A stretch of DNA of 64,000 nt from Saccharopolyspora sp. SCSIO 74807. GTDB lineage: Bacteria > Actinomycetota > Actinomycetes > Mycobacteriales > Pseudonocardiaceae. The stretch is taken from assembly GCF_037023755.1 (NCBI RefSeq), contig NZ_CP146100.1:1986501-2050500 (forward strand), in the 5' to 3' direction. Both the position numbers and the translations under genes were made by a program. Positions 8,626 to 37,284 of the stretch are shown one piece after another. Position 1 is the first letter of the stretch, and every line of letters begins with the position of its first letter. Below the pieces are notes generated by a model that saw nothing but the letters and a program-made list of their open reading frames with translations, was not told the DNA's origin and made no database searches.

Positions 8626-8798
8626 CTACTCGTACCTTTCGGGTCGAACGTTGTCGTGGCCCGCACCGTCGGCGCGTCGTGCGGGGGAGCCGCCCCGTGC
8701 AACCAGCTGCGCGGGGCGCGGATTCCCGCCGGGGCGCGTTCCATCACAGCACGCCGCCGGACGGCGAGCTATCCGCACCTGCCGGTCCCGCGCCGAGC

Positions 8799-26919: not shown

Positions 26920-26992
26920 GCCCCCATCGTCTAGCGGCCTAGGACGCCGCCCTTTCAAGGCGGTAGCGCGGGTTCGAATCCCGTTGGGGGTA
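26920..26992 (+). tRNA. tRNA-Glu (anticodon TTC)
   Basis: A 73-nt cloverleaf. The acceptor GCCCCCA pairs with TGGGGGT, the anticodon loop is CTTTCAA, and the T arm contains GGTTCGAATCC. The discriminator is A; no CCA is encoded. Confidence 0.96.
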
Positions 26993-27008
26993 CGCTACAA
27001 CAGCACAT

Positions 27009-27085
27009 GGCCCAGTGGCGCAGTTGGTCAGCGCGCCGCCCTGTCACGGCGGAGGTCGCGGGTTCAAGTCCCGTCTGGGTCGCCA
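27009..27085 (+). tRNA. tRNA-Asp (anticodon GTC)
   Basis: The acceptor GGCCCAG pairs with CTGGGTC, the anticodon loop is CTGTCAC, and the T arm contains GGTTCAAGTCC. The discriminator is G and the 3' CCA is encoded at 27083-27085. Confidence 0.96.
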
Positions 27086-27114
27086 GAGCGATCGGCTGAG
27101 GAGCCGGGCGCCAC

Positions 27115-27188
27115 GGCCAGGTAGCTCAGTTGGTACGAGCGTCCGCCTGAAAAGCGGAAGGTCGGCGGTTCGACCCCGCCCCTGGCCA
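27115..27188 (+). tRNA. tRNA-Phe (anticodon GAA)
   Basis: A 74-nt cloverleaf with acceptor GGCCAGG/CCTGGCC, anticodon loop CTGAAAA and T loop TTCGACC. It is the last gene of the Glu-Asp-Phe cluster. An integrase remnant on the opposite strand reads into it, which marks it as a likely integration site. Confidence 0.96.
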
Positions 27189-32342: not shown

Positions 32343-33512
32343 GTGTGTCCCGAGTGGACGAACCCGGTGACCGACCGCACAGTGTCCGCTGTGGACTCTA
32401 CGATCGGAGGCCGGTTCAGCGCCGTCGAACTGGGCCGGAACTGGGCGCACTACGGCCACGACGTCCTGGTGCACGACCAGGGCGGCCCCGCGGAATGCCT
32501 GGTGCGCCGAGGTGAACTGGTCGTCGCGCGGGACTCCCTCGACGCGGCGTTGTCGCGGGTGCGCCGTTGGGTCGATCGGGTTCAGCAGGACGACGATCTG
32601 GAACTTGCGCGGATTCGCTTGCGGCCGTCCGAGCGGGATCGCTGCGTGGACATCGCCTGCGACGTGCCGGACGCCTGCGCGAACCACCTGCACATCGGTT
32701 CGCCGGTCATGTTCGGCACGCCGGTGATGTTCGGCAGCGGGGCGGAGCCGGACCCGGCGCCGCCGGTCCCCGAGCCCTCGGACCAGCACTGGGACGTGAC
32801 CGTGGGTGTGCTGGACACCGGCTGCGACCCGCATCCCTGGTTCGCCGGGCGATCTTGGTTCGAGGAGGTGCCGGAAGTCCTGGACGCCGACGACGACAGC
32901 GATCAGGACCGCCAAGCGGGGCACGGAACGTTCGTGTCCGGTGTGGTGCTGCGCCACGCGCCGGGCGCCGCGATCCGGGTGCAGAAGGTGCTTTCCTCGC
33001 TGGGGTTCACCGACGACATGACGGTCGTGGCCGGACTGCGGGCGTTGCGCGCCGATGCCCGGCGGCGCGGTGAGCCGGTCGGCGTGGTCGTGATGACCTC
33101 CGGCTGCCACACGCCCGACGACGAATGCCCACCGGTGTTGCGGGCGGAGATCGAGCGGTTCGCGGGCAGCGTGCTGGTGGCGGCTGCGGGCAACCACAGC
33201 TCGTCGCGGCCGTTCTGGCCCGCCGCGTCGCCGCGGGTCCTGGGGGTGGCCGCGGGTGACAGGCAAGGCGGGCTCGCCGAGTTCTCGAACTCCGGCGGCT
33301 GGGTCGATGCGTGTGCGCCGGGCGTGGACGTGGTGAGCAGTTTCGTGCGGCTGCGGCCCGGGAGCGAGCGCGACTACGGCTTCGCGCGCTGGAGCGGGAC
33401 CTCGTTCGCCGCACCGCAGGTCGCGGCCGCGGTGGCGGCCGCACTCCGGGAAGGGCGGAGCAGGGACGACGCGATCAGTACCGTCCTCCGGCGTTACCCG
33501 TTCGAGGGTTAA
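32343..33512 (+). CDS. Cytoplasmic S8 subtilisin-like protease of the CHAT module
   Basis: The 389-residue protein has no signal peptide. Residues 1-140 form a non-peptidase N-terminal part ending in the repeat PVMFGTPVMFG. The peptidase domain follows: catalytic Asp158 in VGVLDTGCDPHP, His194 in AGHGTFVSGVV, oxyanion Asn284 in AAAGNHSSS, Ser354 in SGTSFAAPQVA. The full triad is intact, so it should be active. The GTG at 32343 is used; GTG at 32367 is an alternative, and neither has a strong ribosome-binding site. It is followed 75 bp later by an ECF sigma gene and belongs to a four-gene module with a CHAT protease. Confidence 0.88.
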   Translation: MCPEWTNPVTDRTVSAVDSTIGGRFSAVELGRNWAHYGHDVLVHDQGGPAECLVRRGELVVARDSLDAALSRVRRWVDRVQQDDDLELARIRLRPSERDRCVDIACDVPDACANHLHIGSPVMFGTPVMFGSGAEPDPAPPVPEPSDQHWDVTVGVLDTGCDPHPWFAGRSWFEEVPEVLDADDDSDQDRQAGHGTFVSGVVLRHAPGAAIRVQKVLSSLGFTDDMTVVAGLRALRADARRRGEPVGVVVMTSGCHTPDDECPPVLRAEIERFAGSVLVAAAGNHSSSRPFWPAASPRVLGVAAGDRQGGLAEFSNSGGWVDACAPGVDVVSSFVRLRPGSERDYGFARWSGTSFAAPQVAAAVAAALREGRSRDDAISTVLRRYPFEG

Positions 33513-33544
33513 TTGGGGTGGGGTGAATCTGATCGGCGGTCTCG

Positions 33545-33581
33545 CCCCTCTTAATCGCGAGAAGGCGATCAAGAGGGGAGG
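33545..33581 (+). promoter_or_regulatory. Hairpin overlapping the sigma gene's Shine-Dalgarno site
   Basis: Fourteen-base arms at 33545-33558 and 33565-33578 pair with one mismatch and a six-base loop. The right arm ends in GAGGGG, so four bases of the Shine-Dalgarno GGGGAGG (33575-33581) are in the stem. An upstream TTAATTGGGG (33509-33518), which includes the protease stop codon, could pair with the left arm instead. It may control sigma factor translation, or be a DNA operator. Confidence 0.6.
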
Positions 33582-33587
33582 TGCCCG

Positions 33588-34181
33588 ATGCGTGCCGTGC
33601 AGGACGGTTCCGATCCGGCTGGGGAGCCGGAGCTGATGGAGCGGGCGGCGGCCGGGGACCAGTTGGCCTGGCGGGAGCTCGTGGACCGCAACAGCGCGGT
33701 CGTGTGGGCTGCAGCCAGAGCGTATTCGCCCACGGTGACCGATGCGGAAGACGTGTGCCAGGCGACGTGGCTGCTGCTCGCGGAGAAGCTGGGGAGCGTG
33801 CGTGATCCCCGTGCGTTACCGGGATGGCTGGCCACGACCGCGCGGCGGGAGGCCGTCCGGTTGTCGAAGGCGCGGCGTCGGGAGTCACCGGTCGGATTCG
33901 AGAACGGGATCCTGGACGTGGTCGACGGGGGCGACGGGCCGGAGAGCAGCGCGCTGCGCTCGCTGACGGTTTCCCGGATGTGGCAGGCGTTCGCGCAGAT
34001 GTCGTTGCGGTGCCAGCAATTGTTGCGGGTGGTCGCGGTCGCGCCGGATGCCAGCTACGAGCAGGTCGGCAAGGCCCTGGGGATGCCGCGGGGCAGCATC
34101 GGCCCGAAGAAGGGGCGGTGCCTGGCGGCGCTGCGGGAGCAGCTTTCCGGTGGCTCGGTTCCGGAGGAGGCCGCCGGATGA
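33588..34181 (+). CDS. ECF-type RNA polymerase sigma factor
   Basis: The protein has 197 residues. Region 2 includes DQLAWRELVDRNSAVVWAAARAY and the core-binding DAEDVCQATWLLLAEKL; region 4 includes YEQVGKALGMPRGSIGPKKGRCLAALREQ. It lacks an extended C-terminal domain and has no anti-sigma factor of the zinc or transmembrane kind beside it. The ATG at 33588 has GGGGAGG six bases upstream, inside a hairpin. The last codons overlap the start of the next gene (ATGA). It probably directs transcription of its own module or of a response regulon. Confidence 0.9.
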   Translation: MRAVQDGSDPAGEPELMERAAAGDQLAWRELVDRNSAVVWAAARAYSPTVTDAEDVCQATWLLLAEKLGSVRDPRALPGWLATTARREAVRLSKARRRESPVGFENGILDVVDGGDGPESSALRSLTVSRMWQAFAQMSLRCQQLLRVVAVAPDASYEQVGKALGMPRGSIGPKKGRCLAALREQLSGGSVPEEAAG

Positions 34182-34660
34182 GGACGCGGAAACCAGCGGA
34201 GCTGCGCGTGCTGGACGATCTGTTCCACCAGTGCGATCCGCCACCGGGACGGATGCTCACCGCCGCTTATGCAGCCGTGGGCCGGGCGCACGGTTTCGAA
34301 GATCCGTCGGGGTTGGAGCTGATCGGGGACTCGGCCGACGAACCGGCCAACACCCGGCTGCACGGCGCCGCGTCTCGGACGCGGGTGCTGACGTATCTGA
34401 TGCCGGGGCGGATCGTCGAGGTCGACTTGGTGCCGATGGTCGGCGGGATGCTCCGAGCGTCCGGGATCGTGCTCAACCAAGCGGGCGATGGCGTTCCGCA
34501 AGGTGAGGTCGTCTTGCGCTGCGCCGATGATCAGCACATCGCGGAGCTGGACGAGAACGGCCGGTACGGTGCGGCCGATCTGCACAGCGGGCCGTTGAGC
34601 GTCGTGTTCCGGCCGGCGGGCGCGGCGGCGCCCGCCGTGGCTGATTGGCTGGTCTGTTGA
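34178..34660 (+). CDS. Small protein with beta-sandwich-like C-terminal half, sigma/CHAT partner
   Basis: This 160-residue protein starts at an ATG that overlaps the sigma stop by four bases. The first third is helical (LRVLDDLFHQCDPPPGRMLTAAYAAV). The second part (RIVEVDLVP, then VLNQAGDGVPQGEVVLRC, DENGRYGAADLHSGPLSVVF) has the strand pattern and D-x-x-G-R-Y turn of carboxypeptidase-regulatory or SdrD B-like domains. Its fixed place between the sigma factor and the CHAT protein suggests an adaptor, anti-sigma or protease substrate. That role is inferred from context only. It overlaps the next gene as well. Confidence 0.75.
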   Translation: MRTRKPAELRVLDDLFHQCDPPPGRMLTAAYAAVGRAHGFEDPSGLELIGDSADEPANTRLHGAASRTRVLTYLMPGRIVEVDLVPMVGGMLRASGIVLNQAGDGVPQGEVVLRCADDQHIAELDENGRYGAADLHSGPLSVVFRPAGAAAPAVADWLVC

Positions 34661-37284
34661 GCGCGGGGACCGCCGTCGCACCGGCGAGGATCTCCGAGTC
34701 GTCGGTGCTGTGGTGGCGGGATCGGGTCGGTGCGGACCCGGCTGGCGCCTTGCGCGTCGCCGAGGAAGTGCTGGCCACAGCCGGGGATCCGCAGCTGCGA
34801 GTGCTCGCCAGGCACGTCGCCTGCCTGGTCGCGGTCGAGCAGGGGCGTTCGTCGGACGCGCGGCAACACGCCCGGCTCGCTCTTGCGGCCGCGCTCCGCG
34901 CGCGGCTATGGGATCGGGCGGCGCAGGTGCGGCTGACCTACGCGTGGACCGAGTTGGACCGCGGTGATCCGGATGCCGCGTGGCAGCACCTGCTGACCGC
35001 GGAGCCGCACCTGAGCGGCGGTGACCTCGCGAGGGCCACCTGCCTGCGCGGCCTGCTGCGGTGCCAGGAGGACCGCTATGACGAGGCGGTCCGCGACCTG
35101 TCCGCGGCATTGCCGCGGTTGACCGGGCACAACGACCACCAGTGGGCGGCGAATGCGCTGGTCGGGCGCGGGCTGGCGCACCTGTACCGCAACCGGCTCG
35201 ACGAGGCGGAGTCGGACCTGGCCGCGGCCGAACGGACGTTCCGCACCCATGGCCGGGTCAACCGTGCCGCGCTGTGCAGGCACAACCGGGGCTGCGTGGC
35301 GTTGCGCGCGGGAGATCTGCCGCGCGCGTTGCAGCTGTTCGACCAGGCGCGGGTGCGGGGCGTGGACCCCGACCAGTGCCCGGAGGTCCTGGTGGACCGC
35401 GCGGAGGCGCTCGCAGGCGCAGGTATGCACGAGCCCGCGCGAGCCGAGCTGCTGCGAGCGGCCGACCGGCTGGAACGGCTCGGCCGCGCGGTGCGGCTCG
35501 CCGAGACCAGGCTGGCGCTGGCGGGATGTGCGCTGCGCGCGGGAGAACCGCTGGAAGCGATCAACGCTGCGCAGCAGGCCGCTCGGTTGTTCCGCTCCCA
35601 GCGTCGTCCGGCGTGGACCGCACTGGCGGTTGCGACCCGGTGGCAGGCGAGGTTGCGGGCCGGGGAGGCGACCCGGCGCGATCTCGCGTCGGCGCGGCGT
35701 GCCGGTTCGGCCTGCGCGGCGCACGGGTGGAGCACTGCGGCGGCCGAGCTGTGGCTCACCGCGGCCCGGGTGGCCGCGGGCCGCGGCCACCGGACTACGG
35801 CGCGACACCTGCTGGAACTGGCGGCGACGGTGCGCGGTGCGGCACCGGGTGACGCGCGACAACTGGCGTTGGGCCGGCTCGCCGAGGCACTGCTGGCCGA
35901 GGACGCCGGGGACGCGGTTCGGCTGTTCGACTCCTGCCGCGAAGGTCTGCGCGCCGTCGAGACGCACGCGGCCGGTATCGCGGCGCTGGAGCTGCGGATC
36001 GAAGCGTTCGGACTGGCGGAGGAACTCGGCGCGACGGCGGTCCGGGCGGCACTGCGCACCGGTGATCCTCGAACCGCGCTGCGCTGGACCGAACGCGGCC
36101 GGGTGAGCGCGTTGCACCGCCGGGCGCTGCGCCCGCCCTCCGATCCGGAGCTGCGCACGGCGCTGGTGCGGCTGCGCTCGGCGGTGGCCGGGATGTGGGG
36201 CGCGAAGGACGCGCGGTTGCGTCATGCGATGTCCGAGATCAGCACGTTGGAACGGCACGTCCGGGATCGGGCACTGCTGGTCGAGGGCGGGGCCGGGGAG
36301 TCCGCGGGCGCGTTCGGGATCGACGAGGTGGTCGCCGCCATCGGCGATGCGGTGCTGCTGACCTTGTTCGCGCACGACGGGGAGTTGCACGCCGTGTCCG
36401 TTGTGGACGGTCGGATCCAGTTGCACTCGCTCGGTTCGGAAGACGGCGCGGTGGCCGAGGCGCAACGGCTGCGCCACGCGCTGGGCAGGGCCGCGGAGTC
36501 CGGGGACGAACGACAGCACGCAGCCTTCCTGAGCAGCGCGCAGGTCACGGCGGATGCTCTCCAGCAGCGCCTACTCGGCCCGCTGGTCGACTCGCTGTCC
36601 GGAGGTCGCAGTTTGCTGGTGGTTCCCACCGGTCGGTTGCACGCCGTCCCGTGGTCGGCCTTGCCCGCCTGCCGCGGACGCAGCGTCACGGTGGCGCCTT
36701 CGCTGCGCTGTTGGATGCGCGGCAGGGCGGACGGTCGAAGCGAATCCGACGGGGAATCGGTGTGGGTCGCGGGCCCTGGTCTGGAACACGCTGAACGGGA
36801 GGTGCGGGCGTTGCACCGCGCCGGCGGCGGCCGGTTGCTGACCGGCGCGGACGCCGGTGCAGAACAGGTCCTGTCCGCTGTGGACGGTGCCGGTGCGGCG
36901 CACATCGCGGCGCACGGTTGGTTCCGCGCCGACCAGCCGCTGCTGTCCTGCCTGGACCTGGCCGACGGGCCGCTGTACGGCTACGACCTGGACCGGCTGC
37001 GCAGCGGCCCGCGCACGGTGGTGCTGTCGGCCTGCGAAGCGGGCCGCTCGGTGGTGGGCCGCGCCGACCAGCTCACCGGCCTCGCCGCGACGCTGCTCGG
37101 GCGGGGGACGGTGACGGTGATCGCCAGCGTCGTGCCGATTCCCGACGAGCGGACCGCGCACGTGATGGTGGCGCTGCACGATTCGCTCCGTCGCGGCGTG
37201 GCCCCGGCCGAGGCGCTGGCCTCGGCGCAGGCGCGGCACGGCGAAACGGGGTTCCTCTGCCTCGGATACGGAGGCCGATCATGA
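34657..37284 (+). CDS. TPR-CHAT caspase-like protease
   Basis: The protein has about 875 residues. The first 470 are alpha-helical repeats of TPR type (for example ALVGRGLAHLYRNRLDEAESDLAAAERTF). The C-terminal 230 form a CHAT domain with the caspase-like dyad intact: His in HIAAHGWF (codon 36913) and Cys in VVLSACEAGRS (codon 37033). VPTGRLHAVPWSAL is the usual lead-in to the fold. CHAT proteases cut partner proteins when activated through their repeats. The TTG at 34657 overlaps the preceding TGA by four bases; TTG at 34645 is an alternative. It closes the protease-sigma-adaptor module. Confidence 0.88.
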   Translation: MSAGTAVAPARISESSVLWWRDRVGADPAGALRVAEEVLATAGDPQLRVLARHVACLVAVEQGRSSDARQHARLALAAALRARLWDRAAQVRLTYAWTELDRGDPDAAWQHLLTAEPHLSGGDLARATCLRGLLRCQEDRYDEAVRDLSAALPRLTGHNDHQWAANALVGRGLAHLYRNRLDEAESDLAAAERTFRTHGRVNRAALCRHNRGCVALRAGDLPRALQLFDQARVRGVDPDQCPEVLVDRAEALAGAGMHEPARAELLRAADRLERLGRAVRLAETRLALAGCALRAGEPLEAINAAQQAARLFRSQRRPAWTALAVATRWQARLRAGEATRRDLASARRAGSACAAHGWSTAAAELWLTAARVAAGRGHRTTARHLLELAATVRGAAPGDARQLALGRLAEALLAEDAGDAVRLFDSCREGLRAVETHAAGIAALELRIEAFGLAEELGATAVRAALRTGDPRTALRWTERGRVSALHRRALRPPSDPELRTALVRLRSAVAGMWGAKDARLRHAMSEISTLERHVRDRALLVEGGAGESAGAFGIDEVVAAIGDAVLLTLFAHDGELHAVSVVDGRIQLHSLGSEDGAVAEAQRLRHALGRAAESGDERQHAAFLSSAQVTADALQQRLLGPLVDSLSGGRSLLVVPTGRLHAVPWSALPACRGRSVTVAPSLRCWMRGRADGRSESDGESVWVAGPGLEHAEREVRALHRAGGGRLLTGADAGAEQVLSAVDGAGAAHIAAHGWFRADQPLLSCLDLADGPLYGYDLDRLRSGPRTVVLSACEAGRSVVGRADQLTGLAATLLGRGTVTVIASVVPIPDERTAHVMVALHDSLRRGVAPAEALASAQARHGETGFLCLGYGGRS

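Follow-up and report, generated by a model that had tools for sequence, protein, structure and literature searches.

Why should two proteases, an extracytoplasmic function (ECF) sigma factor and a small protein be encoded in one row? This question is raised by a locus in a stretch of 64,000 nucleotides (hereafter the window; contig NZ_CP146100.1, positions 1,986,501 to 2,050,500) from Saccharopolyspora sp. SCSIO 74807, whose genome is a single contig of 6.69 Mb. Four genes in one direction encode an S8 subtilase, the sigma factor, a 160-aa small protein and a tetratricopeptide repeat (TPR)-CHAT protease, here called CHAT. In window coordinates, the features are as follows.

32343..33512, plus strand: S8 subtilase, 389 aa as called (Pfam Peptidase_S8, E 1e-22)
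33524..33553, plus strand: conserved promoter-like site in two parts, TGAATCT-N17-CTCTTA, whose end lies 34 bp upstream of the sigma start codon
33588..34181, plus strand: ECF sigma factor, 197 aa (Sigma70_r2, E 2.2e-9; NCBIfam sigma70-ECF above the cut-off; gene context matching group ECF54)
34178..34660, plus strand: small partner protein, 160 aa (CarboxypepD_reg below threshold, E 0.0073); proposed here as a soluble anti-sigma factor and as the substrate of the proteases
34657..37284, plus strand: TPR-CHAT protease, 875 aa from a TTG start (Pfam CHAT, E 1.8e-32, 113.4 bits against a cut-off of 24)

The sigma and small-protein genes, as well as the small-protein and CHAT genes, overlap by 4 bp (ATGA and TTGA, respectively), and 75 bp separate the end of the S8 gene from the sigma start. 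An earlier note made from these letters had given the same gene positions, overlaps and gap, and all four open reading frames were confirmed. Based on the results below, we tentatively suggest that the locus encodes a cytoplasmic sigma switch of the ECF54 type, in which the small protein would be a soluble anti-sigma factor removed by CHAT or the subtilase, and the sigma factor would drive its own operon. The association of the genes has already been published, and the four-gene set belongs to a described but functionally uncharacterised kind. What is new here is the nature of the small protein, its pairing with the sigma factor, the co-inheritance of split sets, the retained catalytic residues, the single promoter-like site and a sharper proposal for the mechanism.

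Recurrence and co-inheritance of the four genes

The four-gene set recurs in many Actinobacteria, in an arrangement far beyond chance. Among the CHAT-anchored loci (the best 80 of 309), the small protein was found in 77, and the remaining three (L084, L086 and L102) lie at contig ends. The sigma gene stood immediately upstream of the small-protein gene in 73 of these 77, and an S8 gene was present within 7 kb in 67; L097 fails the sigma adjacency only through the distance of about 470 bp to the upstream sigma gene. Anchored on the small protein, 109 loci were collected; the window itself, partial matches confined to the C-terminus and some other places were not included. The sigma gene was directly upstream and co-directional in 106 of the 109, with CHAT in 81 and S8 in 67 within 7 kb. 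The fetched stretches covered about 7 kb on each side, and distances are bounded by stretch and contig ends. A 4-bp overlap is possible in 127 of 189 adjacent sigma–small-protein pairs. It should be noted that the CHAT-anchored and relative sets hold repeated genomes (e.g., L015/L025, L018/L037, L020/L046, L021/L044, L023/L047 and L087/L129), that L024 is near-identical to the window and is also counted among the repeats, and that genomes may be double-counted in the CHAT-anchored, 109-locus, promoter, catalytic-residue, coevolution, flanking-gene and overlap counts.

Some loci showed only the sigma and small-protein genes (24 of the 109; 21/60 in another count). When genomes with such split pairs were searched with a CHAT profile, CHAT was found elsewhere in 15/15, matched over about residues 161 to 859-862, and in the same 15 genomes the subtilase gene adjoins the distant CHAT gene and is divergently transcribed. 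Five of the other six split genomes (G132, G117, G273, G147 and G175) also contain CHAT; none was listed in G309, which is 75% complete. In five further CHAT loci (L245-L249), the S8 gene adjoins CHAT in every case. G141, the sole CHAT-only genome, contributed one of them, and the other four belong to genomes that encode the small protein at another place. A further CHAT piece (L250) shows no S8. The reverse division was also observed. In six loci (L096, L101, L103, L121, L210 and L236), the small protein occurs with S8, and in four of them also with CHAT, without an adjacent sigma gene. All six genomes hold a sigma factor of the family elsewhere, which is accompanied by a second small protein in five of them (three Dactylosporangium, G125 and G331) and stands without one in G150. 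The small protein is thus found with the subtilase and CHAT as well as with the sigma factor, and therefore links both halves of the set, the sigma factor being its usual partner.

In a sample of 296 class genomes, the small protein was detected in 101 at a threshold of E 1e-5, and CHAT in 94 at a threshold of E 1e-40. Both were present in 93 genomes, the small protein alone in eight and CHAT alone in one (102 with either). By a wider profile, five of the eight small-protein-only genomes have CHAT nearby, and the other three (G073, G143 and G309) are 75-96% complete. A Fisher test on this co-occurrence ignores relatedness and is descriptive only. Judging from gene content, the view that the sigma factor, small protein, CHAT and subtilase form one functional unit is supported. 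The earlier note had also spoken of one unit and had named co-occurrence as the check on it; the co-occurrence was found, with 106/109 loci and 93 shared genomes. In a coevolution analysis (mean-field direct coupling analysis, 181 triples), the true sigma–small-protein pairing scored above one permuted pairing; the highest-ranking pairs within the small protein itself were not convincing, and the analysis was set aside.

Features of the four proteins

The start codon of the S8 gene is probably the GTG at 32367 rather than that at 32343, because four relatives of the same genus have GTG there. The subtilase comprises an N-terminal domain (about residues 1-145) and a catalytic domain with D158, H194, N284 and S354, that is, the Asp/His/Ser triad and oxyanion Asn of family S8. 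These four residues were unchanged across 10 aligned proteins, and the Asp, His, Asn and Ser were found in 159/159 proteins of the wider alignment (some genomes counted twice).

The CHAT protein, whose TTG start is common to the same four relatives, consists of a TPR superhelix (about residues 14-540) and a CHAT domain (about 555-875) with catalytic H753 and C793. It thus has the CHAT domain, His/Cys dyad and helical-repeat N-terminus of the CHAT peptidases. H753 and C793 were invariant among 11 aligned proteins; in a wider alignment, Cys and His were each present in 179/179, with 6/185 sequences gapped at each position. Both proteases retain their predicted catalytic residues wherever aligned, and the residues picked out beforehand from the letters (Asp158, His194 and Ser354 of S8; the CHAT His and Cys codons at 36913 and 37033) proved correct. 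Saccharopolyspora sp. HNM0986 has a CHAT gene that matches that of the window at 100%. Modelling of CHAT with AlphaFold2 (70 sequences; pLDDT 92.9, pTM 0.89) gave a long helical-repeat region followed by a C-terminal mixed domain. In a Foldseek search with this model, separases were the top matches, and Csx29, DdvA and Craspase TPR-CHAT were among the best 25. By sequence profile of the CHAT domain against the PDB, DdvA was best (E 5.9e-13), followed by Craspase TPR-CHAT (5.5e-9 to 1.9e-7), Csx29 (4.6e-6) and separase (about 0.01). The DdvA and Craspase TPR-CHAT alignments line up their His and Cys motifs with those of the CHAT domain. Separase resembles CHAT as a protease with a helical-repeat region, but it is a eukaryotic cohesin protease whose sequence match to the CHAT domain reaches only E about 0.01. 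A shortened CHAT was encountered in one genome (G009, L020/L046): its homology begins at residue 422, and the TPR superhelix is largely missing. This locus also showed no subtilase, but retained the sigma factor, small protein and promoter-like site.

A hydropathy scan of S8, the sigma factor and the small protein revealed neither a membrane segment nor a signal peptide, in agreement with the earlier reading that no membrane anchor is visible. The hydropathy maximum of CHAT (1.68) starts from residue 553, where the protease domain of the model begins.

In the sigma factor, region 2 matched above the cut-off and region 4 (Sigma70_r4) only below it, and the protein was taken as ECF-type. The context of subtilase, CHAT and a CarboxypepD-type protein, the last by a sub-threshold CarboxypepD_reg match, coincides with the published context of group ECF54, to which we tentatively assign the sigma factor on gene context.

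The small protein was modelled from 124 sequences (pLDDT 88.0, pTM 0.70). The model has N-terminal helices at residues 7-19 and 24-37, followed by strands that may be read as a beta-sandwich; its confidence is lowest around residues 31-40. The description of a small beta-sandwich-like protein, which had been made from the letters, is consistent with this model of two helices and a beta-sandwich. CarboxypepD_reg was matched by 43 of the 124 family members (E up to 0.01), and CarbopepD_reg_2 and SH3_2 by one each. Beta-sandwich domains of the CarboxypepD_reg-like kind are usually scaffolds or binding modules. A role as a carboxypeptidase was rejected, since 0/124 members match a peptidase family (E up to 0.01). 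No PDB match was obtained at E up to 0.001 in a structure search with the model, and the best PDB sequence-profile match was a stretch of NOMO2 (E 2.8e-5). A scan of genome contigs with the small protein alone gave zero matches. The C-terminal half of the protein weakly matched longer open frames, of about 500 codons and above, at other loci (e.g., G291:C23:72985-73221 and G210:C4:3085032-3085265), mostly in the genus with split sets. The small protein is encoded directly downstream of the sigma gene and coupled to it, as is expected of an anti-sigma factor, and probably behaves as the cognate partner of the sigma factor. The earlier remark that no anti-sigma factor is visible is therefore probably wrong.

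The promoter-like site before the sigma gene

The sigma gene of Saccharopolyspora is preceded by TGAATC-N18-CTCTTA. The pattern was found in 24 of 28 loci with a spacing of exactly 18 bp, and on visual inspection the four others (L026, L032, L033 and L048) show CTCTAT in that position. After removal of near-identical upstream regions, AATC-N18-CTCT was present in 19/19, compared with at most six in ten shuffles. Within the window there is a single match at up to two mismatches, with 0.16 expected. In nine genomes (that of the window and eight related ones, all chosen for holding the gene set), the exact TGAATCY-N17-CTCTTA occurs once per genome, each time before the sigma gene. Seven one-mismatch copies were found in four of the nine, versus three for a reversed control. 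The regions of two such copies were inspected as second targets and neither gave a convincing target gene. In L191, two one-mismatch copies face each other 50 bp apart (G016:C1:7903-8012), with no clear target gene. The site also stands before the sigma gene in loci without S8 (L038 and L020/L046). We take the site to be unlike housekeeping promoters, and its unique place suggests that the sigma factor itself may read it.

Among 116 other loci, five contain TGAATC or TGAATT, and the second half, or nearly so, is present only in L020, L046 and L050. Three further groups were scored for a shared promoter, and none exceeded its own shuffles. No common site was seen by eye in the regions upstream of sigma and the CHAT/subtilase intergenic regions of the 15 split genomes.

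Two inverted repeats were also observed near sigma gene starts. In the window, a 14-bp imperfect repeat (33545-33558/33565-33578) overlaps the second half of the site and the sigma ribosome-binding region; this hairpin is not clearly kept in relatives. At the starts of stand-alone sigma genes (L107, about 8660-8745 by eye, minus strand; L110, L105 and others) there is a long inverted repeat, TGACGGGYRCGTG...CACGYRCCCGTCA, which contains runs of G and in which differences between species seem to compensate each other. For L107 and L105, no Rfam family reached the gathering score.

A possible proteolytic switch and its alternatives

Based on the above, the following pathway may be suggested. The ECF sigma factor would be inhibited by its cognate soluble anti-sigma factor, the small beta-sandwich protein. 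A cytoplasmic cue or a partner, sensed by the TPR superhelix, would lead to activation of the caspase-like CHAT protease, which, alone or via the intracellular subtilase, would cut or otherwise remove this inhibitor. Once free, the sigma factor would fire the TGAATC-N18-CTCTTA promoter before its own gene, and the sigma factor, small protein and CHAT would rise together. The result would be a self-amplifying loop, which the rising inhibitor could shut off.

Release of a sigma factor by a protease has a direct precedent, because Csx29 cleaves Csx30, the inhibitor of CASP-sigma, in type III-E systems; the accessible text of PMC10028731 calls unclear how the cleavage releases the sigma factor. 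As here, a TPR-CHAT protein stands beside an ECF sigma factor and its inhibitor, and cutting of the inhibitor is held to free the sigma factor. In contrast, our locus has a subtilase in addition, its partner protein of 160 aa does not match Csx30 by profile, and CRISPR components were not noticed, although no profile search for gRAMP/Cas7-11 was made. Protease-linked sigma control also has a precedent in DdvA, because this best PDB match of the CHAT domain (8rot, 8rw5) is titled a transmembrane anti-sigma factor. Going by titles and match only, DdvA shares a CHAT domain in sigma control, but it sits in the membrane and serves as the anti-sigma factor on its own, whereas CHAT here is a soluble protein whose small partner is encoded separately. 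A literature search for DdvA together with anti-sigma factor found no paper.

Several observations weigh against the anti-sigma switch. Autoregulation stays putative, because the site is limited to the genus and its near kin among the groups examined and no second target gene is evident in the nine genomes. The subtilase was not seen within 7 kb in 42/109 small-protein loci, some of them cut by contig ends. The fusion in L049 (Kibdelosporangium persicum), where one 271-codon open frame comprises the sigma factor and most of the small protein, would in itself speak for the switch, but part of the N-terminal region of the small protein is missing and the fusion is possibly due to a sequencing error. 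The coevolution scores of small protein–CHAT and sigma–CHAT were about as high as that of sigma–small protein. In the fold search with the small protein, none of the 50 matches listed is titled an anti-sigma factor or reaches E <= 0.001. Finally, its sequence profile, the only kind of profile used, found no Csx30 at E up to 1 among all PDB chains, which included the Csx30-titled entry 8eey.

A broader form of the anti-sigma proposal is doubtful. According to it, the small-protein family would be a new class of soluble anti-sigma factor, the set would be a CRISPR-free, class-wide cytoplasmic relay in which TPR-CHAT and the subtilase destroy the anti-sigma factor, and Csx29-Csx30-CASP-sigma would be its CRISPR-captured offshoot.

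Another explanation, which we consider rather unlikely, comes from the ECF54 literature. In ECF54, a carboxypeptidase, a subtilase and CHAT are conserved in the context of the ECF sigma factor, no anti-sigma factor is recognised, and proteolytic control without one was proposed; in the proteolysis class including ECF54, peptidases hold the system inactive by degrading the sigma factor (PMC8999054, accessible text; the primary sources, Huang et al. 2015 and Casas-Pastor et al. 2021, are cited through this review). Accordingly, the proteases would degrade the sigma factor itself and keep its level low, the small protein would be an adaptor delivering it, and a signal would halt the proteolysis. 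The constant sigma–small-protein pairing fits such an adaptor equally well. However, in the experimentally studied case of TPR-CHAT with an ECF sigma factor, Csx29-Csx30-CASP-sigma, it is the inhibitor that is cut (PMC10028731, accessible text), and the pairs without nearby CHAT (24/109) resemble sigma/anti-sigma operons. The "carboxypeptidase" of the ECF54 literature is most likely the small protein described here, hence a binding domain and no enzyme: it would be a regulatory-like beta-sandwich only, without a peptidase domain. The split sets, the co-inheritance and the promoter-like site go unmentioned in the accessible text of PMC8999054. No experimental study of the four-gene set was found in our literature search, most subscription journals lying outside its coverage.

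Less likely still, the small protein could be a co-activator, chaperone or ligand sensor of the sigma factor or CHAT and no inhibitor, while the proteases would process something else, e.g., a product of the regulon. The usual role of CarboxypepD_reg-like domains as scaffolds or binding modules speaks for this, as do the six loci that lack an adjacent sigma gene and hold the small protein together with the subtilase and, in part, also with CHAT. However, five of these six genomes, all except G150, carry a second small protein beside a sigma gene elsewhere.

It is improbable that the set is an anti-phage or cell-death system, with CHAT and the subtilase as executioners and the sigma factor tuning the response. 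A CHAT protease does serve in CRISPR type III-E, and prokaryotic caspase-type conflict systems with ECF sigma factors have been described (accessible texts of PMC10028731 and PMC8195603, respectively). In addition, PADLOC matched S8 to "subtilase" (E 3.4e-9) and to IetS (E 5.5e-5), and CHAT to BovA (E 0.0017), but any subtilase or CHAT protein could give such matches. The chromosomal place of the set is fixed in Saccharopolyspora: five of the seven flanking genes tested were present in 23-24 of 24 loci, while one was found in six (partly owing to loci ending) and one is a predicted frame seen only in the near-identical genome. Plasmid and phage records contained no match covering 80% of CHAT (viral contigs were outside the scan); the partial matches were two in plasmids, one of them in a record of 11.85 Mb, and one in phages. 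The small protein had no match in plasmid records. The conserved flanks and these results therefore argue against a mobile defence island, and they lend no support to the phage or nucleic-acid stress signal that the earlier note had supposed. Upstream of the cassette, three tRNA genes are clustered at window positions 26920-27188. That the four genes are merely neighbours with no shared function is made very unlikely, indeed close to negligible, by the co-inheritance of unlinked halves, and nothing was found in its favour.

The set is carried by about a third of the 296 class genomes sampled. If the small protein is indeed an anti-sigma factor cut by CHAT, caspase-like proteolysis would be a general cytoplasmic sigma switch beyond CRISPR, for which the single promoter-like site before the sigma gene provides a ready-made reporter.

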